Shown: positions 8,243 through 24,829 of the stretch, one piece after another
Layout: each line of letters begins with the position of its first letter
Numbering within the stretch: the stretch's first letter is position 1
From: a virus
Virus record (IMG/VR): IMGVR_UViG_3300020470_000104
Location: 1 to 33,484 of that record
Length of the DNA: 33,484 nucleotides
Reading direction: 5' to 3' (one strand)
Notes under the pieces: model-generated
The model's input: the letters and a program-made list of their open reading frames with translations, nothing else
Told to the model about the DNA's origin: nothing
Database searches by the model: none
Translations under genes and position numbers: made by a program

Positions 8243-11200
8243 ATGGCACTAACCCGACTTAAAAATATCATCACGTCGAGGACAGGTCGTATTATATACG
8301 TCAACCCCGACGACTTTGATGCGTCTGATGCATTTGATAATAGAGGTAACTCAGCGTTACGTCCATTTAAGACGTTGCAGAGAGCATTTCTTGAGGTAGC
8401 AAGATTTTCATATAGAGTTGGTTTGAGTAATGACGAATTTGACGCATTCTCAATCTATCTCTATCCATCAGAGTATGTTATTGATAACCGACCTGGTTTA
8501 GCAGATTATAACCAAATCCAACCATTTAATGAGAATACTAACTTTGATTTAACGTCTGCAAGTAACGAATTATATAAATTTAACTCCACTCGTGGTGGTG
8601 TCATAGTCCCCAGAGGTTGTTCTGTTGTTGGTAGTGACTTACGTCGTACTAAAATTGTGCCGAAGTATGTGCCATACCCTACAGTGCAGGGTAGTTTAGG
8701 TATCACTGCTGCTAACGAGCCTGGTTTCTCTGCTATATTCAGACTAACTGGTGGATGCTATTTCTGGCAGATGTCATTCTTTGATGGTGACAACAACGGT
8801 GTATATTATCGTGATGACCTTTCACAGATTGCCCCAAATTATTCGCACCATAAAATTACGTGTTTTGAGTATGCGAATACAACAGACCTAGAATTATATT
8901 ATCAGAAGATTTCAAAAGGTTATGCTGTTATCCCAGATACCTCTGGTATTATTGCACAAGACCAATTACAACCAAGAGTTGAAGAAAACAGAATCGTTGG
9001 TCCTATTTCTGATGAATTTGCTGTATCACAGATTATTAGAAACGGACAGACTGCAACTGCATTTACTGTAGATGAATTGGGTAACCCCAAAAACCATGGT
9101 TTCTCCGTTGGTGTTGCTGTTAATATATCAGGTGTAACAGGTCCTACTGACCAAGATGCTCTCCTCTATAATGGTAGTTTCTTGGTAACCTCTGCACAAG
9201 GTAACCAGTTTACATATCAGATGTCATCTGAGCCGTCAGGTAATGCGTTAGGTAGTAATATACTTGTTAAAGTTGAAATCGATACTGTTGACTCAGCATC
9301 ACCATATGTCTTTAACTGCTCACTAAGAAGTGTGTGGGGAGTTGCAGGAATGCACGCAGATGGAGCTGAAGCGACTGGTTTCAAATCTATGGTTGTTGCT
9401 CAGTTTACTGGTATATCACTACAGAAAGACGACAGAGCATTTGTATTGTATAATCAATCAACAGGAGCATATGAAGCACAAGCTGCGGGTAGTGGTGCAC
9501 ACATTAACGGTCTTTGCAAATATCGTAAAGGGTGGCGTCATTGCCATATCAAAGCATCCAATGATGCTTTCATTCAGGTTGTTTCTGTGTTTGCTGTTGG
9601 ATTTGGTGACCATTTCTTTTCTCAGTCTGGTGGCGACCTCTCTATTACTAACAGTAACTCAAACTTCGGAAATACGTCGCTGCGAAGCAAAGGATTCAAA
9701 GCTGCATCATTCACAAAAGATAAAGCTGGGCAAATCACTCACGTTATCCCTCCCAAGTCGTTGTCAGATGTTGAAGAAATTTCAATCAACTGGGTTACTA
9801 TTGACATCACCAAGACGAGAAACGTTGCAGACCCCACTAAACTATTCTTATATGGATACACAGTTGAGACTGCGAGACCGCCAAGTAAGGTACAGGGATA
9901 TACTATAGGTGCTAGACGTGATGACGTTAATACACCAGACAGAGTATATGTGCTATTAATTGCATCTGGAGCACAAGAGCCAACAACTCATTATGCAGAG
10001 ATTAATCCTTCAGGTCCTGACGTAACAGGCACAAGAGCGGGTGATGATAATTCACCTATCAAGTGGGATAGCACAAATAATCAATGGTATATACAGGTAG
10101 ATGGCTCACAAAATACAATCTATACTACGTTACTTGCTAACAGTATCTACCAAAACTTAGGATTCACACCTACTACATTCATCCGAAGAGTACCTGATGC
10201 AAGAAACCTTGTTGATAGAATTTATAGATATCGCTATGTATTAGATAAGGATGCTTTCCCAGTGCCTAGACCACCTATCACTGGTTTCGTTGTGCAACCT
10301 AGAAGTAGTGAAACTAACTCTCCTGCATATTCTAAGACATATTATCTCTATTCAGTAGAAACATATCAAGAGTTTGAAAGAGGTGTGACTGATGGAATAT
10401 ATTATTTGACATTCTTGAATGCTAGTGTATCACCTTCAACATCTAACTTTAATGATTTCTTCTTCTCACAGCAGACTGTAGACTTATATCCTGCATTTGA
10501 TAGAGACAACCCAGTAGCCGACCCTGCTGCAGCAGTATCAATAGCAGATAACGAAACATTAGGATTGGTGACAACAACTGATGGTGCATCACCTACACCT
10601 AATGAAGATACACAGAGGTCAATTACAAAAGAGACATCTCAATTCTTCTTACTAGAGTCAGAAAATAACTTAGGATATAACACTACATCTAACGTATTGA
10701 ATGGTATTAGTGTTACTGCTAGATTAGGAGACGCAGAAGAGAGAAAGATACCACTTAAATTAAATGCAGATAACTCAGTCCAACCGATACTCTGTGAGTT
10801 GAGACGATACTCAATTCTTAGAGCATCAGGTCATACGTTTGAGTATCTTGGTTTCGGTCCTGGTAACTATTCAACTGCATTCCCATCTACACAGGTAGAA
10901 GTGTTAACTCCTGCCCAAGTCAGACTGTCGCAGTCACTAAAAGAAGCAGCAGGTGTTGCATATTACTCTGGTGTTAACAGTGATGGTGAGTTGTTTGTTG
11001 GTAACCAAGTTATTAACCCAGTTACAGGTCAGATTACTAACGAGGATATTGCACAACTTAACGTGTTGGGTGAAGAGGGCACAACTATTGAGACATTCTC
11101 CGAATTGGTGCTGACTGATAAACTAACTGTTATTGGTGGTGCATCTAACCAGTTAGAGTCTGTATTCTCAGGTCCTGTTACCTTCCAGAAGAAAGTAACA

Positions 11201-11815
11201 TCACAGGATACAATCCAGACACTTAATCTAACATACTCCAACGACGATGGCACAGTGCTAAGAAATTCATTCTTAGCAGAAGATGATGGTAGTGGTAATC
11301 CTACTGTTGATACTTCACTAGCATTTAATGATGGAGACTTAGCATACAATATAGACTGGACACCAGGCACATTTTTAGGATGGATATATGATAGTGGCAC
11401 ATGGTATAAGTTTGGTCTAAGTGATACTGCACCTATTACATCTAATAGATTCGCAGGAGTTACACACTACGGTATTGGAGAAGCACCTGACGCCAACAAT
11501 AGATTTAGAATTACTGGTAATGTCGCTGTCACTGGTGACATTGATGTGACTGGTAAATATGGTTGTGCAGATAAATATAGTTTAGCAACAGGTGTAAACA
11601 GTGGTAACAATGGTGTGATGTATACAGGTAATGGTAGCACCACATCTTTTGCAATATCACCTGGACATACTGCATATTCGTTATTGGTATTCTTGAATGG
11701 TGTTTGCCAGAGACCAGGCACTGACTACACAGTTAATGCTAACTCTGTAGATTTCTCTATCGGCACAACTCCTCAGACAGGAGACAACATTCAAATTCGT
11801 GAATTGGTAATTTAA
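8243..11815 (+). CDS. Very large structural protein with beta-helix-like N-terminus
   Basis: This is the largest gene in the window, encoding 1190 residues. Near the N-terminus, IYVNPDDFDA (18-27) followed by RPFKTLQRAF (40-49) matches the 'Y-V-x-P...G...P-F-K-T-I-Q-x-A' opening of right-handed parallel beta-helix (pectate-lyase-like) proteins. The rest is beta-rich with many Asn, Asp, Thr and Gly. The C-terminal part (about 1000-1190) contains fibre-like segments such as NRFRITGNVAVTGDIDVTG and ends with LLVFLNGVCQRPGTDYTV, a pattern common at the ends of phage fibres. It is probably a baseplate or fibre component on the virion surface. A role as depolymerase cannot be shown. Confidence 0.7.
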   Translation: MALTRLKNIITSRTGRIIYVNPDDFDASDAFDNRGNSALRPFKTLQRAFLEVARFSYRVGLSNDEFDAFSIYLYPSEYVIDNRPGLADYNQIQPFNENTNFDLTSASNELYKFNSTRGGVIVPRGCSVVGSDLRRTKIVPKYVPYPTVQGSLGITAANEPGFSAIFRLTGGCYFWQMSFFDGDNNGVYYRDDLSQIAPNYSHHKITCFEYANTTDLELYYQKISKGYAVIPDTSGIIAQDQLQPRVEENRIVGPISDEFAVSQIIRNGQTATAFTVDELGNPKNHGFSVGVAVNISGVTGPTDQDALLYNGSFLVTSAQGNQFTYQMSSEPSGNALGSNILVKVEIDTVDSASPYVFNCSLRSVWGVAGMHADGAEATGFKSMVVAQFTGISLQKDDRAFVLYNQSTGAYEAQAAGSGAHINGLCKYRKGWRHCHIKASNDAFIQVVSVFAVGFGDHFFSQSGGDLSITNSNSNFGNTSLRSKGFKAASFTKDKAGQITHVIPPKSLSDVEEISINWVTIDITKTRNVADPTKLFLYGYTVETARPPSKVQGYTIGARRDDVNTPDRVYVLLIASGAQEPTTHYAEINPSGPDVTGTRAGDDNSPIKWDSTNNQWYIQVDGSQNTIYTTLLANSIYQNLGFTPTTFIRRVPDARNLVDRIYRYRYVLDKDAFPVPRPPITGFVVQPRSSETNSPAYSKTYYLYSVETYQEFERGVTDGIYYLTFLNASVSPSTSNFNDFFFSQQTVDLYPAFDRDNPVADPAAAVSIADNETLGLVTTTDGASPTPNEDTQRSITKETSQFFLLESENNLGYNTTSNVLNGISVTARLGDAEERKIPLKLNADNSVQPILCELRRYSILRASGHTFEYLGFGPGNYSTAFPSTQVEVLTPAQVRLSQSLKEAAGVAYYSGVNSDGELFVGNQVINPVTGQITNEDIAQLNVLGEEGTTIETFSELVLTDKLTVIGGASNQLESVFSGPVTFQKKVTSQDTIQTLNLTYSNDDGTVLRNSFLAEDDGSGNPTVDTSLAFNDGDLAYNIDWTPGTFLGWIYDSGTWYKFGLSDTAPITSNRFAGVTHYGIGEAPDANNRFRITGNVAVTGDIDVTGKYGCADKYSLATGVNSGNNGVMYTGNGSTTSFAISPGHTAYSLLVFLNGVCQRPGTDYTVNANSVDFSIGTTPQTGDNIQIRELVI

Positions 11816-11831
11816 TTAACGAGGGAAACCA

Positions 11832-12731
11832 ATGTCAACAAAAATTATAGGTAATCAGATTGACGCAACCACTAGGGCTATCATGGAAGCACTACAGGTT
11901 ACGGAGCAAATCAACTTGCCTTCCCTAAACCAATCCCAAGTTAATGCCTTAGGTACTCCCGCATATGGTACTTTGGTGTATAATACCACCGAAGATATGG
12001 CACAGATATACAAACAGGATGCTGCTCAAGGTGTGCCAGGTTGGGATGATGTAGGTGGTGGAGGACCCAGTGTAGGAGAAGATAGTATCATAAGGACAAA
12101 TGGCACAACTATTGGTGAGACTCTAACAGTCGGACCTAGTGCTAATGGTGGTGTAGAATTTACTAACGGATTCTCTGCAGGACCTATTAATATTGCCAAT
12201 GGTAATACGGTTACAGTAGAGAATGGTGCACAATGGTTTATACTTGGTGGTGAGGACAACGACGTTGGTGAAGGTCAGATAATGCAGATGAGATATTCAC
12301 AGACTCCAGCTGACAGATATTTAATTCAATCACAAAACTTATCACCTATACCTAACTTAGAGGTAACAATACAACCCTCACATACAAACTCAAAAGTGCT
12401 CTTGGTTGCTATGATTAATAGCAATGCGAGACACGTTACATCATTTGGTTTCTTGAGGAATAATGGCACATTAACCAGTGGACTATCTGGTAACACTAAC
12501 GTTGGTAGCGGTAGTGTTGCTACTACCTATCATAATAGGGATACTGGTGGAGATATGTTTAATACTATGATACAATACATGGACATGCCAAACACCACTA
12601 ATCCCTGCACATATTCTGTTGGAGTATCTGCATCATGGGGTGGTGGCACAAGAGACCTCTATATTAATGATAGAGATAGTAATGATATGAGGTCAATTAG
12701 TAGTTTGGCTGCATATGAAATTAGAGGTTAA
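11832..12731 (+). CDS. Tail fibre protein with jelly-roll-like C-terminus
   Basis: This protein of 299 residues has an N-terminal part of a kind common in cyanophage fibres: VTEQINLPSLNQSQVNALG, then YGTLVYNTTEDMAQIY (near 54-69). The C-terminal 130 residues look like a beta-sandwich, with ILV-rich strands ending in SSLAAYEIRG, similar to phage fibre domains that end '...L-x-x-x-E-I'. A Shine-Dalgarno GAGGG lies about 10 bases upstream of the ATG. It is likely a distal fibre or receptor-binding protein. Confidence 0.65.
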   Translation: MSTKIIGNQIDATTRAIMEALQVTEQINLPSLNQSQVNALGTPAYGTLVYNTTEDMAQIYKQDAAQGVPGWDDVGGGGPSVGEDSIIRTNGTTIGETLTVGPSANGGVEFTNGFSAGPINIANGNTVTVENGAQWFILGGEDNDVGEGQIMQMRYSQTPADRYLIQSQNLSPIPNLEVTIQPSHTNSKVLLVAMINSNARHVTSFGFLRNNGTLTSGLSGNTNVGSGSVATTYHNRDTGGDMFNTMIQYMDMPNTTNPCTYSVGVSASWGGGTRDLYINDRDSNDMRSISSLAAYEIRG

Positions 12732-13057: not shown

Positions 13058-13867
13058 ATGGCACAGTTAAAACTGGGAGCTATAAAGGACTTAGGAGGAA
13101 TTGGTGGATTCACTTTTTCCAGTAGTGGTATTACTGCGAACGGGACTTTAACTGTTACTGACATTGTTATTGATGGAAACATCTCGGGGTCTTCAAGTTA
13201 TATTCTCCCTAACCCATCTGGACAGAATAATAACTTTGTTACCAATAACGGCTCAACAATGTCATGGGGTGCTGTTAACTTGCAGTCTGGCATTCGCTCA
13301 ATGCAAGTATGGACTTCCAATGGCACATGGAATAGACCAAGTGGTGTAAAAACTATTTTGGTTAGAGTTACAGGTGCAGGCGGTGGTGGTAGTGGATTCT
13401 GTGAGTCAGGAGGTGCAGGAGGTACTTCCCAACGTCAGGTAGATGTTACCAATGTATCCTCAGTATCTGTTACTGTAGGAAATCCAGGTGGAGGTACTAA
13501 TTACTCTGGTTGCGGTGGAGGTGGAAACACATCATCATTCGGAGGTTATTGCTCTGCATCAGGTGGATATGGTGCTAACTGTAGGCAACAGCACGCAGGA
13601 GGTATCGGTGGTAATGGTAGCGGTGGGTCGCTGAATATATACGGTGGTGGAGGTAACGGACACGGTTCCTATCACTCGTATGGTAACCACAGTTGTGGAC
13701 AATCTTTCTACGGTGGTGGACAAGCAGCATCACACGTACAAAGAAACTACGGACACAATCATCAGTCTCATGCTGCATGGGGTAGTGGTGGTAATGGCAC
13801 AAGAGAAGGAAATAGAGGTGCTAGAGGACGTGAAGGCGTCGTTGTTGTACATGAATTCTACGGATAA
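13058..13867 (+). CDS. Glycine-rich fibre-tip adhesin, copy 1
   Basis: This protein of 269 residues has two parts. Residues 1-85 form a fibre-like domain (LTVTDIVIDGNISGSSSYIL, then NNGSTMSW). From about 86, MQVWTSNGTWNRPSGVKTI leads into a glycine-rich domain containing VTGAGGGGSGF, a pattern typical of phage fibre glycine-rich domains. The C-terminal 150 residues hold runs of Gly separated by His, Asn, Tyr, Ser and Cys, and end NRGARGREGVVVVHEFYG. Polyglycine-rich tips of this type, such as gp38 adhesins of T-even-like phages, bind host receptors. It is the first of three tandem paralogues, from which it differs mostly in one short C-terminal region. Confidence 0.72.
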   Translation: MAQLKLGAIKDLGGIGGFTFSSSGITANGTLTVTDIVIDGNISGSSSYILPNPSGQNNNFVTNNGSTMSWGAVNLQSGIRSMQVWTSNGTWNRPSGVKTILVRVTGAGGGGSGFCESGGAGGTSQRQVDVTNVSSVSVTVGNPGGGTNYSGCGGGGNTSSFGGYCSASGGYGANCRQQHAGGIGGNGSGGSLNIYGGGGNGHGSYHSYGNHSCGQSFYGGGQAASHVQRNYGHNHQSHAAWGSGGNGTREGNRGARGREGVVVVHEFYG

Positions 13868-13875: not shown

Positions 13876-14685
13876 ATGTCACAGCTCAAAGTTGCTTCAA
13901 TAAGAGATTTAACAGATTCCAGAGGTTTCTCACTATCTGGTGGAGGTATATCTGCTGTAGGTACATTGACTGTTGGTAACATTAATATCAACGGACAGAT
14001 ACAAGGGCAGTCTAACTATGTAATACCACCACAGACAGGTAACTCTGGTAAATTCTTGAGCTCAGATGGCTCAGGATTATCTTGGAAAGAAGTGTCAACT
14101 GCCACAGGTATTCGCTCAATGCAAGTGTGGACATCTAATGGCACATGGTCAAGACCCTCAGGAGTCAAAACAATTCTAGTTACTGTAACAGGAGCAGGAG
14201 GTGGTGGTAGTGGATTCGCAGAATCAGGTGGAGCAGGCGGTACAGCAGAGAGAACAGTTGATGTCACAAACGTCTCCAGTGTCGGTGTTACCGTTGGTAA
14301 CCCAGGTGGTGGCTCAAATTATTCTGGTTGCGGTGGCGGTGGTAACACTAGCTCCTTCGGTGGTTACTGTAGTGCGTCAGGCGGATATGGTGCTAACTGT
14401 AGGCAACAGCATGCAGGCGGTATTGGAGGCAATGGGTCTGGAGGAACGTTAAACGTATATGGTGGTGGAGGAAATGGACATGGTAGTTACTGGTGCTATG
14501 GAAACCATACTGCAGGGGGTAGTTACTATGGTGGCACACAACCCTCATCACACAACCAACGTAACTATGCACACAGACACCAATCACATTGTGCATGGGG
14601 AGCTGGAGGAAATGGTGCTAGGGAAGGAAACCGTGGTGCTAGAGGTCGAGAAGGTGTAGTTGTAGTAAAGGAATACTACGGATAA
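13876..14685 (+). CDS. Glycine-rich fibre-tip adhesin, copy 2
   Basis: This protein of 269 residues is paralogous to copies 1 and 3. The N-terminal fibre domain has its own sequence (LTVGNININGQIQGQSNYVI). The glycine-rich domain keeps the shared NYSGCGGGGNTSSFGGYCS block, the NCRQQHAGGIGGNGSGG block and the NRGARGREGVVVV tail. In the His/Tyr-rich segment it reads GSYWCYGNHTAGGSYYGG, where copy 1 has GSYHSYGNHSCGQSFYGG. It would sit at the outer end of a fibre and contact the host. Whether the three copies form one mixed trimer or are used in alternative fibres is not known. Confidence 0.72.
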   Translation: MSQLKVASIRDLTDSRGFSLSGGGISAVGTLTVGNININGQIQGQSNYVIPPQTGNSGKFLSSDGSGLSWKEVSTATGIRSMQVWTSNGTWSRPSGVKTILVTVTGAGGGGSGFAESGGAGGTAERTVDVTNVSSVGVTVGNPGGGSNYSGCGGGGNTSSFGGYCSASGGYGANCRQQHAGGIGGNGSGGTLNVYGGGGNGHGSYWCYGNHTAGGSYYGGTQPSSHNQRNYAHRHQSHCAWGAGGNGAREGNRGARGREGVVVVKEYYG

Positions 14686-14708: not shown

Positions 14709-15521
14709 ATGTCTGTTTTAAAAGTTACTGAAGTAAGAGACCTAGCGGGTATTGGTGGATTTTCATTCTCTAGTGGCACAGTTACTGCCTTAGGTACATT
14801 GAAAGTCAATGACATCAATATCAATGGAAATATTCAAGGTAGCTCTAACTACATAGTCCCTAACTTGTCTGGACAGTCAGGTAGATTCTTGACCACTAAT
14901 GGCACATCAATGTCATGGCAAGGATTGACTGCTGTAGCAGGATTAAGGTCAATGCAAGTGTGGACATCTAATGGCACATGGAATAGACCTAGCGGTGTAG
15001 AAACTATCCAAGTCACTGTAACAGGTGCGGGTGGTGGAGGTTCTGGATTCACTGAATCTGGTGGAGCGGGCGGTACTGCCGAAAGAGTAATTGACGTAAC
15101 CAATACATCTTCAGTATCTGTTACTGTTGGTAATCCTGGCGGTGGTAGTAACTACTCAGGATGTGGTGGTGGAGGTAATACTTCATCATTTGGTGGATAC
15201 TGCTCTGGCGGTGGTGGACAAGGTGCTAACTGTCGTCAGCAACACGCAGGAGGTGTTGGTGGTAATGGTAGTGGTGGTACCTTAAACGTATACGGTGGCG
15301 GTGGTAACGGTCATGGTAGTTATCACTCATACGGTAACCACTCAGCAGGCATGTCATACATGGGAGGTACACAACCCTCTGGACACGCACAAAGAAACTA
15401 TAGTCATAGACATCAATCTCACGCAGCTTGGGGTGCAGGCGGTAATGGTGCTCGAGAGGGCAACCGTGGTGCTCGAGGTCGTGAAGGTGTGGTCGTAGTT
15501 TATGAATACTATGGTGGCTAA
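14709..15521 (+). CDS. Glycine-rich fibre-tip adhesin, copy 3
   Basis: This protein of 270 residues is the third paralogue. The N-terminal domain (VTEVRDLAGIGGFSFSS) is closest to that of copy 1. The glycine-rich domain matches the others except in the His/Tyr-rich segment, where it reads GSYHSYGNHSAGMSYMGG and then SGHAQRNYSHRHQSHAAWG. It also has GGGGQGANC where the others have SASGGYGANC-like sequence. It ends YEYYGG. The role is predicted to be receptor binding at the fibre tip, as for copies 1 and 2. Confidence 0.72.
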   Translation: MSVLKVTEVRDLAGIGGFSFSSGTVTALGTLKVNDININGNIQGSSNYIVPNLSGQSGRFLTTNGTSMSWQGLTAVAGLRSMQVWTSNGTWNRPSGVETIQVTVTGAGGGGSGFTESGGAGGTAERVIDVTNTSSVSVTVGNPGGGSNYSGCGGGGNTSSFGGYCSGGGGQGANCRQQHAGGVGGNGSGGTLNVYGGGGNGHGSYHSYGNHSAGMSYMGGTQPSGHAQRNYSHRHQSHAAWGAGGNGAREGNRGARGREGVVVVYEYYGG

Positions 15522-15548: not shown

Positions 15549-15974
15549 ATGGCAAAATGGGCAATCGTGGATGGCGATTCTGGACAATTATCAGATATCG
15601 TTGATGAAGCGGACAAATTTGAAATTTACGAAGGTGCTGACGCAACATCTAAATGGTGCGAAGTGCCAGACGATACTACCTTTGAGCATTATATGGTCAA
15701 TGGGACAGTCATACATCATAATGATGTAGAAGACCCTAAAGAAGATGCTCAGGTAACTCGGGAATTAGCATATGGGGCTATTGGTGACCAGTTAGATATG
15801 CAGTATAAAGACTCACTAGATGGTGGTACACGTTGGAAAGACCACATTGCAAATGTTAAGGCAACAACTACTGCACCTTCAACATTTGGCACATTTAATT
15901 TAGACGAGAAAAAGGTACAATTAGAAGGACGTAAAGCGTGGGACCCATGGGTTGACAACTGGTCTCCACCATAG
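15549..15974 (+). CDS. Small fibre-associated or assembly protein
   Basis: This protein of 141 residues is the last gene of the late fibre module. The segment AYGAIGDQLDMQYKD (about 74-88) resembles the 'Y-P-x-I-G-D-Q-L-D-x-x-x-K' motif found in many small phage proteins encoded beside tail fibres, including XkdW-like and DUF4376-like proteins. The ends are rich in Trp (WVDNWSPP). It may be a structural component or help fibre assembly. An AGGAAGGA ribosome site lies upstream. The -35 element of the next promoter lies inside its 3' end. Confidence 0.55.
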   Translation: MAKWAIVDGDSGQLSDIVDEADKFEIYEGADATSKWCEVPDDTTFEHYMVNGTVIHHNDVEDPKEDAQVTRELAYGAIGDQLDMQYKDSLDGGTRWKDHIANVKATTTAPSTFGTFNLDEKKVQLEGRKAWDPWVDNWSPP

Positions 15975-15980
15975 TATAAT
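15952..15980 (+). promoter_or_regulatory. Perfect-consensus sigma70 promoter (TTGACA-N17-TATAAT)
   Basis: TTGACA at 15952-15957 and TATAAT at 15975-15980 are separated by exactly 17 bases, the full consensus of a strong bacterial housekeeping promoter. Transcription should begin near 15987. It stands at the junction between the late fibre module and the halogenase operon and partly overlaps the end of the preceding gene, so it likely acts early with unmodified host polymerase. Confidence 0.85.
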
Positions 15981-16001: not shown

Positions 16002-16029
16002 AAGAGGAGCATGACACTCCTCTTTTTTT
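16002..16029 (+). terminator. Rho-independent terminator in the halogenase leader
   Basis: AAGAGGAG (16002-16009) and CTCCTCTT (16017-16024) form a perfect 8-bp stem with the 7-base loop CATGACA, followed by a T run to 16029. The halogenase ATG is the very next base. The hairpin ends late transcripts from the fibre genes but also lies downstream of the start site of the 15952 promoter, so it could attenuate the halogenase operon. The stem also contains the only purine-rich Shine-Dalgarno-like sequence in the leader. Confidence 0.85.
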
Positions 16030-17628
16030 ATGAAAGTTGAATCTATTTGTATAATTGGTGGTGGTAGTAGTGGTTGGATGTCAGCAGCTATACTATCTAA
16101 AGAGCACCCAGACATTGAGATATGTCTGATTGAAAGTGAAAAGACTAAACCTATTGGTGTAGGAGAATCTACACTAGGACATTTTAATAGGTTTCTTATT
16201 CGCTTAGGATTAAAAGATGACACGTGGATGCCACATTGCAATGCCACTTACAAAACATCTATTGCATTTAAGAATTTTAGAGAAGGAAAGGGAGAGAGAT
16301 TTCAATATCCATTTGGTAAGTTTGATACTATAGATTGGTATTGTGATAATCCCATACGCTTTTATGAGTTAAGAGCAAAGTATGGTAAAGAGTTATATCC
16401 ACCAGAAGAATTTGCCCGTTTTGCCAACAGGTCTACATGGTTGGCAGAAGAGTGTCGTATGGTTGATAAAGAGATACCAGGTTCGGTATGGGACGAGAGA
16501 TTAGATAGAGCATATCATTTAGACGCAGAATTATTTGGACAGTATTTAAAAGAGCATCATTGCATACCTAATGGTGTGGTGCATCTTACTGGGGAGGTTG
16601 GCAATGTCATTAAAAGACCTGATGGTAGTATTCAATCCATCATTACTGATGATGGTACTTCTATTAGTGCTGATATGTTTCTAGATTGCACAGGTTTTAA
16701 ATCACTAATACTTGAGCAACACATGGGTAGTCCTTTCGAGGATTTCCATTACAAATTATATAATGATGCAGCACTCGCAACACAGATTCCATATGTGGAC
16801 AGAGAGAAACAGATGGAAACATATACTGATTGTGTTGGAATGAATGCAGGGTGGGTATGGAATATTCCACTATGGCATAGAGTAGGCACAGGTTATTGTT
16901 ATAGTAGTAAGTATATCAATCAGTGTGAAGCAGAGGTAGAATTTAGAAAGTATCTTGCAGTCAGATATTCGCCCAAAATTGCCCATGAAGCTGAGTTTAA
17001 ACCTATTAAAATTAAACACGGTAAGCATACAGAAGCATGGGTAAAGAATGTTGTAGGTATTGGTTTATCATATGGATTTGTAGAGCCATTAGAATCAACT
17101 GGACTCATGACTACTCATGAGAATATATTATTACTATCAGATTTCTTAGAGAGGAGAGAGGGTATTGTAACTAGATTTGATAGAGATAGTTACAACGGAC
17201 AGGTTAATAATATGATTGAAGCAATGTCTAATTTTGTATCATTACATTATTCATTGTCATCAAGAGAAGATAATCAGTATTGGAGAGACGTGACAGAGAA
17301 TATAGATTATGTTAATATGGGTAAGCATCTCTATAGTGAGGTAGATGCACTTGCAAACACATGGTTGTTAATGAATAGTGTAGAAAATACATTTGCCAAA
17401 GAACATGATGAGCAAGCAGGCAGCATTTATATTTGTGCGGGTCATGATTACATACCTTATGGTAAATCTTCATACGGTGAAAAAGTAAGAGGTGGATTCC
17501 ATACTGGTGGATATGATATTGAAGAAGCACATCAACAGTATCAGAAAGACAGAGCAGCAATGATAGAATGGAGTCGTAGACAACCAACTCATTATGAATA
17601 CTTGAGGGATAACATTTACAATGTTTAA
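16030..17628 (+). CDS. Flavin-dependent halogenase (tryptophan halogenase family)
   Basis: This protein of 532 residues matches the family length (about 500-540). It has the FAD-binding IIGGGSSGWMSAA (8-20), GVGEST (43-48), and the lysine K75 in ATYKTSIAF at the position of the catalytic lysine of PrnA (K79). The diagnostic WVWNIP motif is at 275-280, and FVEPLESTG (350-358) places E355-S356 where PrnA has E346-S347. These enzymes use FADH2, oxygen and halide to form hypohalous acid, which the lysine delivers to an aromatic substrate; a flavin reductase is needed from elsewhere. A cyanophage member, VirX1 of phage Syn10, is known to prefer iodide and accept many substrates. All key residues are present, so the enzyme is probably active. 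It heads an oxygenase-rich operon. Confidence 0.92.
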   Translation: MKVESICIIGGGSSGWMSAAILSKEHPDIEICLIESEKTKPIGVGESTLGHFNRFLIRLGLKDDTWMPHCNATYKTSIAFKNFREGKGERFQYPFGKFDTIDWYCDNPIRFYELRAKYGKELYPPEEFARFANRSTWLAEECRMVDKEIPGSVWDERLDRAYHLDAELFGQYLKEHHCIPNGVVHLTGEVGNVIKRPDGSIQSIITDDGTSISADMFLDCTGFKSLILEQHMGSPFEDFHYKLYNDAALATQIPYVDREKQMETYTDCVGMNAGWVWNIPLWHRVGTGYCYSSKYINQCEAEVEFRKYLAVRYSPKIAHEAEFKPIKIKHGKHTEAWVKNVVGIGLSYGFVEPLESTGLMTTHENILLLSDFLERREGIVTRFDRDSYNGQVNNMIEAMSNFVSLHYSLSSREDNQYWRDVTENIDYVNMGKHLYSEVDALANTWLLMNSVENTFAKEHDEQAGSIYICAGHDYIPYGKSSYGEKVRGGFHTGGYDIEEAHQQYQKDRAAMIEWSRRQPTHYEYLRDNIYNV

Positions 17629-18484
17629 TTTATTTAAAAAGAAAAACAAGTGGATTAGATTTTATTCTCTAGACACAGGAGTTGTAGAGTTACACCCAAT
17701 ATTTCCTGCACGCAGATTAAAACGTAAGTGGAGGAAAGATGCACTTAAACAAGAGCAGGCAAAAGAAGAAAAGAAATGCCCTGCATTAAAAGCTAGTGCA
17801 TTGTGGAATAGAATGATGAATCTTGATTCACCAGATGCACCAGATAGTTTGTGGTCTCATGCTGCAACTTGCCCTGCATTAGACGCCATTATGGACAGTG
17901 GATATATTATCCCTGCCCCTGCGGATTTTATTATTCAGTTAGATGGCAGTGGTAACTTTGAGTGGAGGTCAGAAACATTATTCTATGGTGGTAGATATGT
18001 GACAGCACATATACCTGAGCAGACAGAAGGAATGAGAAACCTTGTCAATCAGCAGAAAGATGTGCTAGACTATACTATAAAGATGGAATTACCTTGGCGT
18101 GTGCAAGCACACAAGGATATTGTCTTTATTCAACAGAATATAGCATATTGGGACGAGGAGAGATTCTCAGTCCCTACTGGCATTGTTGACCCACAATACT
18201 CTTATGAGATAAACTGTCAACTATTCTGGCACATAACAGAACCTGGTGAGTATCTCATCAAAGCAGGCACACCATTGGTGCAGTGGATACCAATTCACAG
18301 AGACATTCTTAATAGTAAGGGTGTTGACGTTATGATTGAGACAGCAAATGCTGACGATTTACATAACAACGAAGTCATGGAGTATAATCGTAGAAAGAAT
18401 TTTACAGAGAATACTACATTGTCTGAGAGAATAAAAGCACAAGCAGATATTCTCAAGCTAAATAAAAACATCGAGAGGTTTTAA
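17621..18484 (+). CDS. Conserved-type protein beside halogenase, DUF6065-like
   Basis: This protein of 287 residues overlaps the halogenase gene by 8 bases. The N-terminus is strongly basic (residues 6-50). Two CPAL segments occur at 53 and 84, the second starting CPALDAIMDSGYIIPAPADF, followed by IIQLDGSGNFEW. This C-P ... G-Y-x-I-x-x-P-x-D ... D-G ... W pattern recalls DUF6065 proteins. The middle is beta-rich (ITEPGEYLIKAGTPLVQWIP) and the C-terminus is a charged helix. The function is unknown. Its coupling to the halogenase suggests it handles or supplies the substrate, but this is inference only. Confidence 0.6.
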   Translation: MFNLFKKKNKWIRFYSLDTGVVELHPIFPARRLKRKWRKDALKQEQAKEEKKCPALKASALWNRMMNLDSPDAPDSLWSHAATCPALDAIMDSGYIIPAPADFIIQLDGSGNFEWRSETLFYGGRYVTAHIPEQTEGMRNLVNQQKDVLDYTIKMELPWRVQAHKDIVFIQQNIAYWDEERFSVPTGIVDPQYSYEINCQLFWHITEPGEYLIKAGTPLVQWIPIHRDILNSKGVDVMIETANADDLHNNEVMEYNRRKNFTENTTLSERIKAQADILKLNKNIERF

Positions 18485-18487
18485 TTA

Positions 18488-18844
18488 ATGGCAAAAGAGC
18501 AAACCGTTACTGAGGTGAATTTGGCAGAAAGAGCCAACATCAAAACTGAAGAAGAAAAGAGGGCAACCACTGACGTTATTGAAGGTTTGATTACCTTTGA
18601 CCAGTTGGTGATGAATTTCTTACAACAGCATCATGATACTTTAGAGGAGTATCACAAGTTGCAAGAAGCACTTGACAATATGCATTACACATCTACTATC
18701 ACTAAGATTAGTCTAGAGGAATTGCAGGCAAAGAAAGACCAACTTAATAAATTAAGTGGAGCTATTGAAGCGTTAGCGTTGTATAAGAAGCACGTTGACC
18801 CTAATTGTACTGAAAGAGAATTCTCATTTGATGAAGAGACTTGA
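18488..18844 (+). CDS. Small coiled-coil protein
   Basis: This protein of 118 residues is almost entirely helical by composition. Charged heptad-like stretches run from about 45 to 105 (for example EEYHKLQEALDNM and LQAKKDQLNKLSGAIEALAL), which suggests a coiled coil. No catalytic motif is seen. It starts 3 bases after the preceding stop and overlaps the next oxygenase gene by 14 bases, so it belongs to the halogenase operon. A scaffold or assembly role is possible but not shown. Confidence 0.6.
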   Translation: MAKEQTVTEVNLAERANIKTEEEKRATTDVIEGLITFDQLVMNFLQQHHDTLEEYHKLQEALDNMHYTSTITKISLEELQAKKDQLNKLSGAIEALALYKKHVDPNCTEREFSFDEET

Positions 18845-19493
18845 TTTGTTTACGACACCTATTTGGGTGACAGATAAGTGTGGTGTAGATAGAGATAAGA
18901 TTATTAATTTCGTTAAAGTTGTAGAGGCAGAAGACCCTAGAGGTCGAGAAGCATCTAACATGGGTGGTTGGCAGTCATATGATTTCCTACCAAATATAAT
19001 GAAAAATAATCCTCTAGGTGAGTTGCATGACAGAATTATGCAACAAGCATATGCGTGTGCAGATGAGTTTGGTTTTAAAGACTATACTCTACATATGTTA
19101 AACCTATGGATTAACATAAACAAGAAAGGAGACTCAAACGTCACACATACACATCCTGGCAGTATATTCTCAGGAGTATATTACTTAAGTTTGCCCGATT
19201 GTTGTTATGGTAATCTTACATTACAACGTAGTCCAACTGACCAACACATGAGAGAGTCATGGGGTTGTAGTGAAAACTTTGATAGATATAATGAATTGAT
19301 TATGGACGAGTATGACATCTATCCTGAGGAGGATAGGTTAGTTATATTCCCATCATGGGTACCACATAGAGTGAGTGCAAGTCAAGGAGACGGAGCAAGA
19401 ATATCTATTTCATTTAACATCATGGCATTCAGTAATTTTTATCATGAAATATATCCGAAAGGAAGGAATAATCCAACCCACCTATCTCTCTAG
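18831..19493 (+). CDS. 2OG-Fe(II) oxygenase, TIGR02466-like
   Basis: This protein of 220 residues starts at ATG 18831, because MKRLDLFTTPIWV fits the 'L-F-x-T-P-I-W' opening of the TIGR02466 family; a longer upstream start is less likely. The iron-binding motif THTHPGSIFSGVYYLSLP (105-122) carries H106 and H108. The distal block RLVIFPSWVPHRV (169-181) supplies H179, and R190 in ARISISFNI is placed to bind 2-oxoglutarate. It is one of the clearest oxygenases in the window. The substrate is unknown; the operon context suggests it acts with the halogenase. Confidence 0.82.
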   Translation: MKRLDLFTTPIWVTDKCGVDRDKIINFVKVVEAEDPRGREASNMGGWQSYDFLPNIMKNNPLGELHDRIMQQAYACADEFGFKDYTLHMLNLWININKKGDSNVTHTHPGSIFSGVYYLSLPDCCYGNLTLQRSPTDQHMRESWGCSENFDRYNELIMDEYDIYPEEDRLVIFPSWVPHRVSASQGDGARISISFNIMAFSNFYHEIYPKGRNNPTHLSL

Positions 19494-20082
19494 ATTATAT
19501 ACATTGACATCAGGTATGAATGGATTTCCTTGGTTCTTTTTATCTGAGGATATATCATACCCAGTAGAAGCAGTTGATAAAGCACTAGGACAAATTGATA
19601 TACAACACCCAGACAAACGTAGCGTAGGATTCACTCATTTACTTTTAGACCAAGAGGGTGTGGAGTCACCATTTCTACCTACATTCCAAGCACTCTTAGA
19701 TAATATTAGTGATGCGTTAGGTGGTGTCACATTCTTCAGAGCTAGATTAGCATTGCAATTAAATAATGGAAAAAATTGCCCAAATTTGCCCCATACGGAT
19801 CACGAGGAAGACCACTACAGTGCATTATATTATCTACATGACTCATCAGGTGATACAGTATTTTATAATGAGTATGATGACCCTAATGATGGCACTATTG
19901 ATGACAGATGGCATAGAGCAAAGACACAGAAATATACAGAGTGTATGAGACAGACACCAAAAGCAAATACATTGTTTGCATTTGATGGTCACCAGTTTCA
20001 TTCATCATCTAATCCAACTGATAATGAATTTCGTATCATTCTCAACCTAAACTTTAGGAGTAATTATGATATTTTTAGATAA
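19444..20082 (+). CDS. 2OG-Fe(II) oxygenase-like protein
   Basis: Counted from ATG 19444 the protein has 212 residues; a start at ATG 19516 (188 residues, beginning MNGFPWFFLS) is also possible. Neither start has a strong Shine-Dalgarno sequence. The longer form keeps a helix before the FPWFF segment (28-32) that such proteins often have. The iron motif is PHTDHEEDHYSALYYL (116-131) with H117 and D119. The distal part is LFAFDGHQFHSSSNP (177-191) with H186, and R197 should bind 2-oxoglutarate. The strand pair FRARLALQLNN (98-108) fits the double-stranded beta-helix core. The substrate is unknown. Confidence 0.75.
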   Translation: MKYIRKEGIIQPTYLSRLYTLTSGMNGFPWFFLSEDISYPVEAVDKALGQIDIQHPDKRSVGFTHLLLDQEGVESPFLPTFQALLDNISDALGGVTFFRARLALQLNNGKNCPNLPHTDHEEDHYSALYYLHDSSGDTVFYNEYDDPNDGTIDDRWHRAKTQKYTECMRQTPKANTLFAFDGHQFHSSSNPTDNEFRIILNLNFRSNYDIFR

Positions 20083-20740
20083 AGATTGGGAGATTGATGA
20101 CACACCACAATATTTCCCCAATGTTATTGAGGAGGTATATGATTGGTGTAGTTGGAAAGATGTTGAGCAGTGCATCAACAACCCACAGTTTTATGAATTA
20201 GAGTTTATAAAAAATGGTGAAAAGTTAAATTTGCCAGTATCACCTCGTATCTGGTCACAACCACATATCCATAAGGAAGATTGTTATAAACTATTCCAAG
20301 ATGAATGTGGTATGATAATTAATAACTTTCAATTCATAAGTAAAAAGAAATGTGAGTTGTTAGCAGGGATAGAGAGACAGTTTACAGTTGATGCAGCAAT
20401 GCACGTTTATTGTGGTATAGGTGGACATGGGTCATTTAATATACATGAGGATTATGCACATAATTTTATTATTCAAGTAGAAGGAGAGACAGAGTGGACA
20501 GTATATAATAATAAAGCATCATACCTAGTGCCTAAGTATGAAGGCACTATTGATGAGAGTAAATTAGATGTTGCTATTGATGTGACTATGAAATCAGGAG
20601 ACGTTTTGTATATCCCTGCGAGGACATATCACAGAGCAAAACCAAAAGGACAGAGACTATCTGTTAGCATACCAATGGCATCTATCATGTATGATACTCA
20701 ACTGATAGGAGAGGATAGGAAGTGGTATGAAATCAATTAA
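20066..20740 (+). CDS. JmjC/cupin-type oxygenase
   Basis: This protein of 224 residues shows a JmjC-like cupin core. HVYCGIGGHGSFNIHEDYAH (113-132) carries the H127-x-D129 iron pair, followed by NFIIQVEGETEWTVY (133-147) with the 'Q-V-x-G-x-x-x-W' strand typical of JmjC hydroxylases. Then SGDVLYIPARTYHRA (177-191) supplies H189. Bacterial and phage relatives hydroxylate amino-acid side chains of proteins such as ribosomal proteins, or act on small molecules. The gene overlaps its neighbours by 17 and 14 bases. It differs in fold subtype from the surrounding 2OG enzymes, so the operon carries several kinds of oxygenase. Confidence 0.8.
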   Translation: MIFLDKDWEIDDTPQYFPNVIEEVYDWCSWKDVEQCINNPQFYELEFIKNGEKLNLPVSPRIWSQPHIHKEDCYKLFQDECGMIINNFQFISKKKCELLAGIERQFTVDAAMHVYCGIGGHGSFNIHEDYAHNFIIQVEGETEWTVYNNKASYLVPKYEGTIDESKLDVAIDVTMKSGDVLYIPARTYHRAKPKGQRLSVSIPMASIMYDTQLIGEDRKWYEIN

Positions 20741-21326
20741 TCCTACACCATATATTTTTAAAGATACATTTGATTTTAAATTTGATACATTCAAATCTAA
20801 AGTTGATGAGTATATTGCTGAAGCATCACAGTATGATGAGGAAACACCAGAGAAAGATGGTGGTATATCAACTGTAGTTATTAGTAAGAAGTATCCACCA
20901 CATTCATGGGAAGAGTTGCAACCATTCTTAGAGTGGATGTACCCTAGAGTCAATCAGGTGTGGGATATATTTGATTGTAAACCTATGGAGAAATACCTAT
21001 CAGATTCATGGATAAACAAACACCCAAAAAATGCCTATACTTGCCCGCATCATCATCAAAATGTCACCATTGCAGTTGCTTGTTATCTAAATGCACCACC
21101 CAATAGTGGTAACTTGTTAATCAAGACACCATTTGAAGTGCATAAGTATAGCGAACCTCTATTACATGACTATTATGATATGGAAAGAGACTGGAAAACT
21201 ATAGAGGTAAATACTAATGATGTTTTGTTTTTTCCTGGTTGGTTAACTCACAAAACAGGAGTCAACAAAGTAGATGAGGACAGGTATGTCATGTCTTTAA
21301 ATATCATGGGGGTCTATACAAGATGA
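20727..21326 (+). CDS. 2OG-Fe(II) oxygenase-like protein
   Basis: This protein of 199 residues has the iron motif CPHHHQNVTIAVACYLN (106-122) with H108 and H110. NAPPNSGNLLI (122-132) follows, the 'S-G-x-L' loop seen in short phage oxygenases. The distal block TNDVLFFPGWLTHKTG (163-178) carries H175 and R186 lies in DRYVMSLNI. The H-x-H form of the first motif is shared with the proteins at 2010, 2919 and 18831. The substrate is unknown. The gene overlaps the JmjC gene upstream by 14 bases and the next gene by 4 bases. Confidence 0.78.
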   Translation: MKSINPTPYIFKDTFDFKFDTFKSKVDEYIAEASQYDEETPEKDGGISTVVISKKYPPHSWEELQPFLEWMYPRVNQVWDIFDCKPMEKYLSDSWINKHPKNAYTCPHHHQNVTIAVACYLNAPPNSGNLLIKTPFEVHKYSEPLLHDYYDMERDWKTIEVNTNDVLFFPGWLTHKTGVNKVDEDRYVMSLNIMGVYTR

Positions 21327-22042
21327 GTTATTACACAGATAACAAACTAAACATATATGACACTAATTTAATTAGTGAGGAGTTATTTCAAGAGATTGCT
21401 TTGTTACCTTATAATTTTACGAGGACTGACAATGTGCCAACGAAAGATAATCCTAACTTAGAGTTAGAAGGAATGTATTGGACTCATCAATTCTATAATT
21501 TCACACCTATTGATGACCCAGATTATTTTCAAAATCCAGGAATTGAAGGTAGTAATAATAAATTATACTTAGATATATTATCTTACTTAGAAATAAAGAT
21601 ACCAAATCTACCACCACGAGAGCATTTATACTCATCATATGTTAATGTTTTAAAGTATGGAAATTCACCAGGAATTCATGTTGATTCACCTTATTTTGTA
21701 GAAGAAAATAGGACAATATTAGTATATCTTAATCCAGTATGGAATCCACAATGGGGTGGAGAGACAATATTCTTTGATGATGATTTAGACTGTAGGAAAG
21801 CGATACAACCAAGAGCAGGGAGAGTCGTAGTTTTTGATGGTCGCATACCACACACAGGTAGGACATCAACTATTAGATTTCTATATAATAGGTATGTGTT
21901 GGCATATAAGTATATGTTACCAGAGACCAGACAGAGATTATTCACAGACCACGAAATGAATAATATGCCACCTGTTATGGATAATGGTATTGTAGGTTTT
22001 AATCCCAACACAGTCCGAGACATATGGAAAAATATAAGTTAG
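21323..22042 (+). CDS. 2OG-Fe(II) oxygenase, prolyl-4-hydroxylase-like
   Basis: This protein of 239 residues is the most canonical P4H-type enzyme here. YVNVLKYGNSPGIHVDSP (106-123) holds H119-x-D121. LVYLNPVWNPQWGGETIFF (133-151) matches the 'Y-L-N-x-x-W-x-x-x-x-G-G-E-T' strand of P4H and PKHD-type hydroxylases. AGRVVVFDGRIPHTG (165-179) supplies H177, and R185 or R190 would bind 2-oxoglutarate. The substrate is unknown; P4H-like enzymes act on prolines or other residues of peptides. The extended C-terminus (190-239) is Asn-rich and less conserved in appearance. Confidence 0.87.
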   Translation: MSYYTDNKLNIYDTNLISEELFQEIALLPYNFTRTDNVPTKDNPNLELEGMYWTHQFYNFTPIDDPDYFQNPGIEGSNNKLYLDILSYLEIKIPNLPPREHLYSSYVNVLKYGNSPGIHVDSPYFVEENRTILVYLNPVWNPQWGGETIFFDDDLDCRKAIQPRAGRVVVFDGRIPHTGRTSTIRFLYNRYVLAYKYMLPETRQRLFTDHEMNNMPPVMDNGIVGFNPNTVRDIWKNIS

Positions 22043-22043
22043 A

Positions 22044-22241
22044 ATGTTAAATAGTAATGCCTATGATAGGGGAGTCATGTATTCTTTAAAATCACAACTA
22101 CTTGGGAGACCAGAGAAAGACCTTTTAAGGAAGGCATTATTCTTATATCAAAAGAATCTGTATCAACAACTGGGAGAGTTACCAGAAAAGCAAAGAGATT
22201 TAATTTCAGACATAGCGGACAAGTTGAATCTAAAACACTAG
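22044..22241 (+). CDS. Small helical protein of unknown function
   Basis: This protein of 65 residues is predicted helical with many Leu, Lys and Gln (YQQLGELPEKQRDLISDIAD). The start is one base after the preceding stop, and the next gene begins immediately after its own stop. No family was recognised. Confidence 0.55.
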   Translation: MLNSNAYDRGVMYSLKSQLLGRPEKDLLRKALFLYQKNLYQQLGELPEKQRDLISDIADKLNLKH

Positions 22242-22568
22242 ATGACTATACCTATTTTCTTATCAGAGGCAATTCCGTTGGAAATCAGAAACATTTTAAA
22301 ATCCCTAGAAATTGGTATGCCAGTCAGGTTTAGAAGTGATGAGGGGTTAATTAGTTTTATATGCAATGATTACATCACAATATGTGTTAGAAAGATACCT
22401 GATGAGACATATAGAAATAAAGAGAGAGAAGTAAACGTAATTTGTAGAGCGTGTGACTGGGACGAACTTGAGATAGAAGATACACACTTCCAAAATAAAA
22501 AGAATTATAAGGGAAACACCAATGACCATCCAGGAAATGAGTTGTTACCACCTATTGAAGATAGATGA
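22242..22568 (+). CDS. Unknown protein of 108 residues
   Basis: The first 60 residues alternate hydrophobic and charged stretches and may form a small alpha/beta domain. It contains a C-R-A-C segment (NVICRACDW) but no second cysteine pair, so a zinc site is doubtful. It abuts the upstream gene and overlaps the next by 4 bases (ATGA). Confidence 0.55.
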   Translation: MTIPIFLSEAIPLEIRNILKSLEIGMPVRFRSDEGLISFICNDYITICVRKIPDETYRNKEREVNVICRACDWDELEIEDTHFQNKKNYKGNTNDHPGNELLPPIEDR

Positions 22569-23331: not shown

Positions 23332-23964
23332 ATGACTATTAATTCAGTAGCAAAGACAAACACAGACACAACAGCAAAGATTGTTAGAGACCTTGAGCAA
23401 CTAACAACATGGACTATTATCGAAACAAACAAGTATCTTGAGACATTTGAAATCTATGGTAAGACACTACAAGATTACAAAGATACTATGAATACAGCAG
23501 ACTTCACTAAGTTTTTCCAGTATATTGTCAATGACGTTATTGAAGCAGGCATTAAGAAACTAGGTCTTAATGGTGTTAGAGAAGAGGTATCAGGTTATGA
23601 CTACAAGTTTCATGACACACCAGTAGAGTTTAAACTCATGGGTGGAGAGAGTAAGTCATCTTTCGCTACTGGTAACAAGACTTCTCACTTCGGTGGTGCA
23701 AAGACTAATCTAGTATGGTCAATTAAATATACTTTCAACAACAACAAGATTGATAGTTTTGGTATGGTTGTTATCGATACTGACCTAACAGAGTCAAACG
23801 TATGGAAGTCATCATCAGGTAGGAAAGATTCATTCTCTACACTTGAGTTAATGAATGACGAGGAGAGTTGCATCTTGTCTCAGTATGGTAAAATCAAGAA
23901 AGCAGTTAAGAAACTACACTTCTTACCTCTACCTACTGACATCTTGGTTGCATACTACAAGTAA
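23332..23964 (+). CDS. Probable restriction endonuclease (PD-(D/E)XK type)
   Basis: This protein of 210 residues has a central segment SGYDYKFHDTPVEFKLMGG (87-105). In it D90 or D95 and E99-x-K101, in a hydrophobic strand, fit the PD-(D/E)XK nuclease core. It is followed by GNKTSHFGGAKTNLVWSI (114-131) and a strand FGMVVIDTD (143-151), as in type II restriction enzymes with folded Lys/Gly loops. The next gene is a DNA methyltransferase, which strongly supports this role. If active it would cut DNA lacking the cognate methylation, such as host or competing phage DNA. The specificity is unknown and the family assignment needs a structural comparison. Confidence 0.5.
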   Translation: MTINSVAKTNTDTTAKIVRDLEQLTTWTIIETNKYLETFEIYGKTLQDYKDTMNTADFTKFFQYIVNDVIEAGIKKLGLNGVREEVSGYDYKFHDTPVEFKLMGGESKSSFATGNKTSHFGGAKTNLVWSIKYTFNNNKIDSFGMVVIDTDLTESNVWKSSSGRKDSFSTLELMNDEESCILSQYGKIKKAVKKLHFLPLPTDILVAYYK

Positions 23965-23976
23965 TTGTGGTATAAT
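23948..23976 (+). promoter_or_regulatory. Promoter for the methyltransferase (TTGCAT-N17-TATAAT)
   Basis: TTGCAT at 23948-23953 and TATAAT at 23971-23976 are 17 bases apart, and TGG directly before the -10 gives an extended -10 (TGGTATAAT). The -35 lies inside the 3' end of the nuclease gene. The methyltransferase could therefore be made independently of the nuclease, as is common in restriction-modification systems. Confidence 0.72.
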
Positions 23977-23995
23977 TCAGAGGTTACAATACTTT

Positions 23996-24829
23996 ATGGA
24001 ATTGAATAAGACCTATAATATGAATTGCATTGAGGGGTTAAATCAACTCAATGCAAATTCTATTGATTTGTGTGTAACATCACCACCATATGATGACATG
24101 AGGACTTACAACGATAGTAGTAAGTGGGATTTTAATGTATTCAAAGATGTTGCACAGGCATTGACAAGAGTGTTAAAAGATGGTGGTGTCATTATGTGGA
24201 ATGTAGGAGACGCTACGATTGATGGTAGCGAGAGCGGTAGCAGTTTTAGACAAGCACTATATTTTAAAGATGAGTGTGGTTTAAGACTACATGACACTAT
24301 GATATATGAAAAAACAGGCATAGCATTTGCTAGTGGGTCGAAGTCTGTTAGATATAGTCAGGCATTTGAATATTGCTTTATACTATCTAAGGGGAGACCA
24401 AAGACTGTTAATATTATCATGGATAAACCTAACAAGTGGGCAGGGTCAACATCATGGGGTAAAGCAAGGAGCAGAGGGAAAGATGGTGAGTTAATTATTC
24501 GAGAGAATAAAACCAACCCCATCAAAGAATTTGGTGCAAGGAATAATATATGGAGGATTAAGAATTGTGGTGGTTTTGGACAAACTAACAAGAATTCATA
24601 TAAACACCCTGCAACAATGCCTGAGGAGTTGGCAAGAGGACATATTCAGACATGGAGTAATGAGGGTGATGTTGTAGTTGACCCATTCATGGGTAGTGGC
24701 ACAACAGCACAGATAAGTATTGAAGAGAATAGACAATTTATTGGTTTTGAGATTGACCCTACCTATCACCAAATGTGCGAGGATAGAGTTAGACCACTAC
24801 AAGATAATCTATTGACACGATTATGTTAA
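23996..24829 (+). CDS. DNA methyltransferase, beta class (m6A or m4C)
   Basis: This protein of 277 residues is counted from ATG 23996, just after the promoter above. The catalytic motif IV, VTSPPYDD (27-34), lies near the N-terminus. The SAM-binding motif I, DPFMGSGTT (229-237), comes near the C-terminus, preceded by HPATMPEEL (204-212). This order defines the beta class. SPPY occurs in both N4-cytosine and N6-adenine enzymes, so the methylated base is uncertain. It probably protects phage DNA from the neighbouring nuclease or from host restriction. No target-recognition motif can be read. Confidence 0.88.
   Translation: MELNKTYNMNCIEGLNQLNANSIDLCVTSPPYDDMRTYNDSSKWDFNVFKDVAQALTRVLKDGGVIMWNVGDATIDGSESGSSFRQALYFKDECGLRLHDTMIYEKTGIAFASGSKSVRYSQAFEYCFILSKGRPKTVNIIMDKPNKWAGSTSWGKARSRGKDGELIIRENKTNPIKEFGARNNIWRIKNCGGFGQTNKNSYKHPATMPEELARGHIQTWSNEGDVVVDPFMGSGTTAQISIEENRQFIGFEIDPTYHQMCEDRVRPLQDNLLTRLC

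Follow-up and report, generated by a model that had tools for sequence, protein, structure and literature searches.

A cyanophage gene block of a halogenase and five oxygenases linked to glycine-rich tail-fibre adhesins: a proposed adhesin modification system

Introduction

What do the halogenases and 2-oxoglutarate (2OG)-dependent Fe(II) oxygenases encoded by cyanophages act on? The question is raised by a 33.5-kb IMG/VR viral fragment, IMGVR_UViG_3300020470_000104 (the whole stretch is called the window here), whose gene content is typical of T4-like cyanophages (baseplate, fibre, talC and oxygenase genes by PHROG annotation). At 16030-22042 it carries a block of eight genes that opens with a flavin-dependent halogenase and includes five oxygenases, and upstream of the block lie three genes for glycine-rich tail-fibre adhesins. 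We found that the active sites of these enzymes are intact and that their linkage to such adhesins holds at two places in the genome, whichever way the enzymes are oriented. We consider it fairly probable that the block serves to modify the phage's own receptor-binding adhesins post-translationally.

Since the first genomes, no convincing function has been put forward for these enzymes, and the published guesses include antibiotic protection, DNA repair and nitrogen signalling. Earlier papers place genes of the block among the auxiliary metabolic genes and guess at their roles (PMC3037559, PMC2984593, PMC9964418, PMC9146016). A literature search, mostly without subscription papers, returned nothing that treats the block as a single pathway or connects it with adhesins. 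A sequence-only reading of the window had taken cyanophage halogenases and oxygenases to be known only singly. This does not hold, as the cluster is visible in the published genomes of syn9, Syn10, S-CREM1 and P-TIM40, and VirX1 is the halogenase of the Syn10 cluster.

Gene content and active sites of the block

The eight genes at 16030-22042 were found in place as first described, head to tail on one strand with spacing of -17 to +22 bases; like the fibre, adhesin, small-protein and promoter features below, they lie on the + strand. The first gene (16030..17628) encodes a complete flavin-dependent halogenase (Pfam Trp_halogenase, PF04820, 3e-102, 343 bits versus a cut-off of 21). In an alignment of 17 relatives including VirX1, K75, the GGGSSG flavin motif, W275-V-W277-N-I-P280 and EPLES-TG are kept, so that the GxGxxG and WxWxIP motifs and the catalytic Lys and Glu are all present.

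Pfam and PHROGs bear out the assignment of four 2OG-Fe(II) oxygenases and one JmjC hydroxylase. The iron ligands read from the sequence are confirmed as well: the triads are essentially invariant in 41-174 relatives per oxygenase, and a downstream, 2OG-binding Arg is conserved alongside them. Two PF13759 proteins carry HxH...H (18831..19493, 2e-22, H106, H108, H179, R190; and 20727..21326, 1e-13, H108, H110, H175, R186). The other three of the five carry HxD...H: a phrog_274/PF13759-like oxygenase (19516..20082, phrog_274 1e-27; H112, D114, H181, R192, numbered from 19459), a NO66/MINA53-like JmjC_2 hydroxylase (20066..20740, PF08007 1e-17; H127, D129, H189) and a prolyl-hydroxylase-like oxygenase (21323..22042, PF13640 2e-10; H119, D121, H177, R190). 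The 19516-20082 protein, the second 2OG oxygenase, falls below the Pfam cut-off, and its assignment rests on phrog_274 and the triad; it probably starts at ATG 19516, which we prefer over an overlapping long open reading frame (ORF). The PHROG labels 'DNA endonuclease V' and 'minor coat protein' (phrog_274, phrog_1644) look misleading, as these families match 2OG oxygenases of the block.

Sequence searches of PDB matched the JmjC protein to NO66 (4e-6) and MINA53 (2e-5), JmjC_2 relatives that are protein histidyl hydroxylases. The window protein has the PF08007 domain and HxD...H in common with the JmjC ribosomal-protein hydroxylases YcfD, NO66 and MINA53. It differs from them in its size (~224 aa), in having none of the known C-terminal domains and in the linkage of its gene to a fibre adhesin rather than a ribosomal protein.

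Linkage of the enzymes to glycine-rich adhesins

The conserved unit begins upstream of the block as first delimited, with the adhesin genes (from 13058) and a chaperone-like gene (15549). The three adhesins, our proposed substrates, are paralogues of 269-270 aa, with Gly_rich_2 above cut-off in two of the three. They are encoded at 13058..13867 (phrog_863, 5e-60, with Pfam Gly_rich_2, fold and linkage in support), 13876..14685 (phrog_863, 4e-58; 74% identical to the first) and 14709..15521 (phrog_863, 4e-58; AlphaFold/Foldseek match to 7YPX). The gene that follows them (15549..15974) belongs to phrog_1787, and in relatives it lies nearly always between adhesins and halogenase.

Gene order, on whose conservation the proposal of a pathway depended, is kept in isolates and in contigs. 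In P-TIM40, syn9, Syn10 and S-CREM1 the order is adhesins, phrog_1787, halogenase(s), phrog_7084 and oxygenases with JmjC; P-RSM6, S-WAM1 and S-SZBM1 have the same order without phrog_7084. The adhesins of syn9 are gp38 and gp39, and those of Syn10 are CPUG_00135 and CPUG_00134. In S-RIM44, Sf-CH3 and Sf-FR1 the adhesin-phrog_1787-halogenase-phrog_7084-oxygenase unit is found elsewhere in the genome, flanked by a giant fibre gene on one side and the neck gene gp13 on the other, so that the enzymes move with the adhesins. Sf-CH11 has a looser version (glycine-rich gene, oxygenases, halogenase). Among isolates, the adhesin was found in seven phages, all with a halogenase.

We also scanned viral contigs with profiles built here. 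With adhesins as seeds, we counted homologues at E<=1e-12 that have 3 kb or more of downstream sequence: in 39/40 of these close homologues a halogenase lies within 8 kb, and the remaining one (L223) has an oxygenase and just 3.1 kb of sequence on that side. Seeding with halogenases gave glycine-rich and phrog_1787 genes upstream in 52 of the 65 loci with enough upstream sequence. A larger set of 136 non-redundant halogenases (<85% identity, 3.5 kb each side, neighbours counted within 7 kb) mixes loci from different queries, so that the two single-query counts are cleaner; in it an adhesin accompanies 109 halogenases, phrog_1787 103, phrog_7084 99 and at least two oxygenases 120, and adhesin, phrog_1787 and at least two oxygenases occur together at 96.

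We looked for the same set in bacteria. Among the 80 closest bacterial halogenase loci, phrog_7084 was found at none, an oxygenase match at two and a JmjC match at one. We therefore rejected the idea that the block as a whole came from bacteria or has a counterpart there, as the set was not seen at these loci.

The halogenase as an orthologue of VirX1

The closest solved structure to the window halogenase is VirX1 of phage Syn10 (PDB 6QGM, Gkotsi et al. 2019; E=2e-153, full length, 48% identity). At its start, Syn10 CPUG_00131 matches the 6QGM sequence, and the gene sits in the same gene order in Syn10. Hence the window enzyme is identified as a VirX1 orthologue at the VirX1 locus, and by sequence and gene order this locus is of the native type of a characterised iodinating enzyme. 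Halogenating activity has been shown for VirX1. This trimeric enzyme has a large active site that is readily accessible and a broad substrate range, prefers iodide over bromide and iodinates many small aromatics; the review that describes it names no natural substrate (PMC8407142). VirX1 was investigated as a small-molecule biocatalyst, whereas here the shared order of adhesins, phrog_1787, halogenase, phrog_7084, oxygenases and JmjC supplies, through the adhesin and oxygenase neighbourhood, a candidate substrate.

The taste of VirX1 for small aromatics could instead reflect tailoring of a small molecule: an aromatic metabolite, host- or phage-made, would be halogenated and hydroxylated during infection, for example an antibiotic or signalling compound. 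Most characterised tryptophan halogenases use free small molecules, and the S-CREM1 paper suggests a PrnA-type role in antibiotic protection (PMC9964418). However, we recognised in the window no gene that would form a scaffold (NRPS, PKS, precursor peptide, transporter), it is an adhesin that constantly neighbours the enzymes, and the 80 bacterial loci lack this set. We regard small-molecule tailoring as unlikely.

Orientation and range of the linkage

The enzymes might also serve some other infection function and merely be carried in an exchangeable block with host-range adhesins. Adhesin regions are recombination hot spots, and cyanophage 2OG oxygenases occur at many other places (PMC3037559), including 2010-3479 of the window. 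Against such hitchhiking, these particular partners are found together at two places in the genome and also with enzymes and adhesins on opposite strands: in L215 (13187-20726), L216 and L251 (12546-20068) the halogenase and oxygenase genes lie on the opposite strand and still abut the adhesins, so that adjacency is not required by shared transcription alone. More distant adhesins, moreover, mostly lack a halogenase and the other enzymes. Hitchhiking appears quite unlikely to us.

Fold of the adhesins and the phrog_1787 protein

The AlphaFold model of the third adhesin has a pLDDT of 65, with residues ~80-200 better predicted (moderate confidence). Its best fold match in PDB is the receptor-binding fibre of cyanophage Pam3 (7YPX; E=3e-6, TM 0.50-0.54), followed by Bxb1 tail-tip proteins; a sequence-profile search of PDB with the adhesin found nothing, and only the fold search matched. 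According to the available passages on Pam3, its fibre is a trimer in which a glycine-rich domain forms the distal, receptor-facing part, and the chaperone comes from gp25, the next gene by number; these passages make no mention of halogenase or oxygenase neighbours (PMC9608196). The likeness to Pam3 gp24/gp25 extends over three points: the adhesin model matches gp24, the distal domain is glycine-rich and a small chaperone-like gene lies directly downstream.

That small gene encodes the phrog_1787 protein. Its relatives share a conserved N-terminal part and a helix region, AYGD-GEQLDMLYKD. No sequence match to a solved chaperone (TFA/gp25) was found in PDB, even by profile. From its position and this two-part, gp25-like layout, we take the phrog_1787 protein to be a probable fibre chaperone.

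Expression signals and virion composition

Ahead of the halogenase lies a sigma70-type promoter, TTGACA-17-TATAAT (15952..15980), which scores 12/12. No other + strand site in the window does so, and ~0.01 such sites would be expected per 13.5 kb. The promoter is retained at 10-12/12, in the same place, in many close relatives; the TTGACA half falls inside coding sequence, which may account for its retention, and the TATAAT half is mostly intergenic. A hairpin followed by a T7 tract (16002..16029), terminator- or attenuator-like, abuts the halogenase start codon. The layout of hairpin and T tract recurs with a different hairpin sequence in L009, L041 and L046. The hairpin is no more stable than shuffled sequences over 81 nt (folding z-score -0.18), and a terminator role therefore rests on the T7 tail and the recurrence. 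Promoter and hairpin could possibly form an attenuator or yield a very short leader RNA. Overall, the enzyme block probably has its own promoter, and co-transcription of the whole block is plausible and consistent with the conserved promoter just before the halogenase. We also noted late-promoter-like ATAAATA motifs at 13863 and 14681, just before the second and third adhesin genes.

Published mass spectrometry of S-SZBM1 virions detected the fibre proteins gp52 (1192 aa), gp51 (287 aa), gp53 and gp54, and did not detect the halogenase gp46, the phrog_1787 protein gp47, the oxygenases and JmjC protein gp42-44, or the adhesins gp48 and gp49 (PMC9146016, Table 1). In theory, trypsin would release 8-9 peptides from the adhesins, amounting to 41-53% of their length, so that their non-detection may reflect low abundance or poor digestion. 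Non-detection is likewise what one would expect of modified peptides, but it proves nothing. For S-CREM1, 14 virion proteins are reported (PMC9964418).

A sigma70-type promoter permits expression ahead of the late genes and would also suit enzymes directed at the host, which would act on its surface or regulatory proteins, or deplete 2-oxoglutarate and in that way shift nitrogen signalling. A role of this kind has been proposed for cyanophage 2OG oxygenases in general (PMC3037559). It leaves the fixed adhesin neighbour and the halogenase unexplained, and many sequence-diverse oxygenases would be unnecessary just to consume 2OG; we consider a host-directed role very unlikely.

The phrog_7084 protein

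The second gene of the block (17621..18484, phrog_7084 3e-54) encodes a protein that appears to have a dUTPase-like fold. Its AlphaFold model is of high quality (pLDDT 92.8), and all listed top Foldseek matches are dUTPases or dCTP deaminases (best E=9e-4), with a TM score of 0.64 over the target but 0.29 over the query. No significant dUTPase sequence match was found (profile hits to dUTPases at E 0.13-0.9), and the sole resemblance to dUTPase motifs is a motif-III/IV-like stretch, TGIVDPxY...AGTPLxQ. The earlier label of a DUF6065-like protein (PF19541) found no support in Pfam and was dropped: the window protein has no match at E<=5, and one of ten homologues matches at E=0.089. The phrog_7084 proteins appear to be a divergent dUTPase-fold group that consistently accompanies halogenases; some phages (L173, L176, L178) have several copies.

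The dUTPase-like fold, together with the phrog_274 label 'DNA endonuclease V', could hint at nucleic-acid or nucleotide modification, which is highly improbable given that the dUTPase match is at fold level only, the phrog_274 proteins found here have intact triads and are 2OG oxygenases, and the oxygenases match PF13759, PF13640 and JmjC_2 rather than AlkB- or TET-type families.

Neighbouring genes

Upstream of the adhesins, the window encodes a large tail fibre protein (phrog_529, 8243..11815; PHROG tail fibre E=0, orthologue of S-SZBM1 gp52) and a gp35-like fibre-associated protein (11832..12731; phrog_7459 4e-107, orthologue of S-SZBM1 gp51), with a 105-aa ORF between the gp35-like gene and the first glycine-rich gene. 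The third gene of the block (18488..18844) encodes a small coiled-coil-like protein of no significant family, syntenic in many relatives. Two small proteins assigned by PHROG and synteny, phrog_712 (22044..22241) and phrog_8681 (22242..22568), form the tail of the syntenic block.

Further downstream, a gene for a protein of unknown function (23332-23964) overlaps that of a probable TSPPY-type DNA methyltransferase (23855-24829). The two are perhaps a modification or restriction-like pair, and a methyltransferase is also annotated in P-TIM40. Two further 2OG-Fe(II) oxygenases are encoded at 2010-2636 and 2919-3479, beside the baseplate hub/lysozyme gene and followed by a transaldolase gene (3476-4135); 2010-3479 is a second oxygenase site near structural genes. 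In L119 (8760-9989), L127, L128, L142, L165, L212 and L234, a conserved ~410-aa protein is encoded between phrog_1787 and the halogenase. It has clustered cysteines (CIYHCPF...CRNQCWDCHECERTFG), no Pfam match and matches only to unknown PHROGs, and is possibly an iron-sulphur enzyme.

Discussion

The sequence-only reading had seen in the block a tailoring pathway for a peptide, a protein or a small molecule. The halogenase-plus-oxygenases set with conserved gene order stands; on the substrate, which had been left open, linkage to glycine-rich adhesins points to a virion protein. We favour an adhesin maturation pathway because the JmjC relatives hydroxylate protein histidines, VirX1-type active sites are wide, and the linked glycine-rich domains are richer in His, Arg and Tyr. 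In the pathway we propose, the halogenase would halogenate aromatic side chains in the exposed loops of the glycine-rich tip during assembly, with Tyr as the likeliest target and Trp or His as possible ones, and the oxygenases would hydroxylate other residues, with His, Arg, Asn, Pro and Lys as candidates. The putative dUTPase-fold protein and the coiled-coil protein may perhaps be adaptors. The modified tip would bind the host surface differently or be more stable, and the enzymes would do their work within the cell without becoming part of the virion. The S-SZBM1 virion, with fibre proteins and no detected halogenase or cluster oxygenases, speaks for this proposal.

Several points weigh against adhesin modification. 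Gene linkage is no proof of substrate identity. The linkage is partly common descent, and the adhesin seeds were taken from halogenase-linked phages. The Kyanoviridae halogenases of P-SSM2, S-PM2, Syn1, S-MbCM6 and S-B64 have no adhesin neighbour, and in the closest group of the window one enzyme set is shared by three adhesins. The enrichment of halogenase-linked over unlinked glycine-rich domains in His (3.5 versus 1.5%, P=0.002), Arg (2.8 versus 1.4%, P=0.0008) and Tyr (5.4 versus 3.6%, P=0.003) comes from 72 versus 14 non-redundant domains, that is, from few unlinked cases, with 20 residues tested and phylogeny uncorrected. The His and Arg content of the adhesins does not follow the presence of the JmjC gene. 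Finally, the near-consensus promoter before the halogenase is of the sigma70 type and not of the T4-late type expected for assembly genes. This last objection is tempered by freshwater-type relatives (L105, L118, L124, L133), which have T4-late-type TATAAATA/ATAAATA motifs in the gap between phrog_1787 and halogenase.

Parts of the proposed pathway have counterparts elsewhere. MibH is a flavin halogenase for a peptide-borne aromatic residue, its substrate being a small lanthipeptide; 5UAO, among the PDB matches of the window halogenase, is presumably MibH. The peptide-borne aromatic target would be alike in both, whereas the target proposed here is a folded trimeric fibre. Mimivirus L230, a giant-virus collagen hydroxylase, is similar in that a virus encodes hydroxylases for its own fibre or surface proteins. 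It differs in enzyme families, in the absence of halogenation and in its eukaryotic host.

The wider proposal is more tentative. We suggest, as a possibility that falls a little short of probable, that tailed phages have a dedicated multi-enzyme pathway that halogenates and multiply hydroxylates the receptor-binding tips of their own fibres, which would be the first phage system of this kind and the natural function of VirX1. The linkage to adhesins gives the cyanophage 'tryptophan halogenases' and 2OG oxygenases one testable function and VirX1 a natural-substrate candidate. Halogenation of the adhesins, if shown, would make this a system of a new kind. Under the wider proposal, the chemistry on which host range depends would extend past the 20 amino acids, and phages could recognise hosts through residues that enzymes have altered and that escape both sequence-based prediction and ordinary proteomics.

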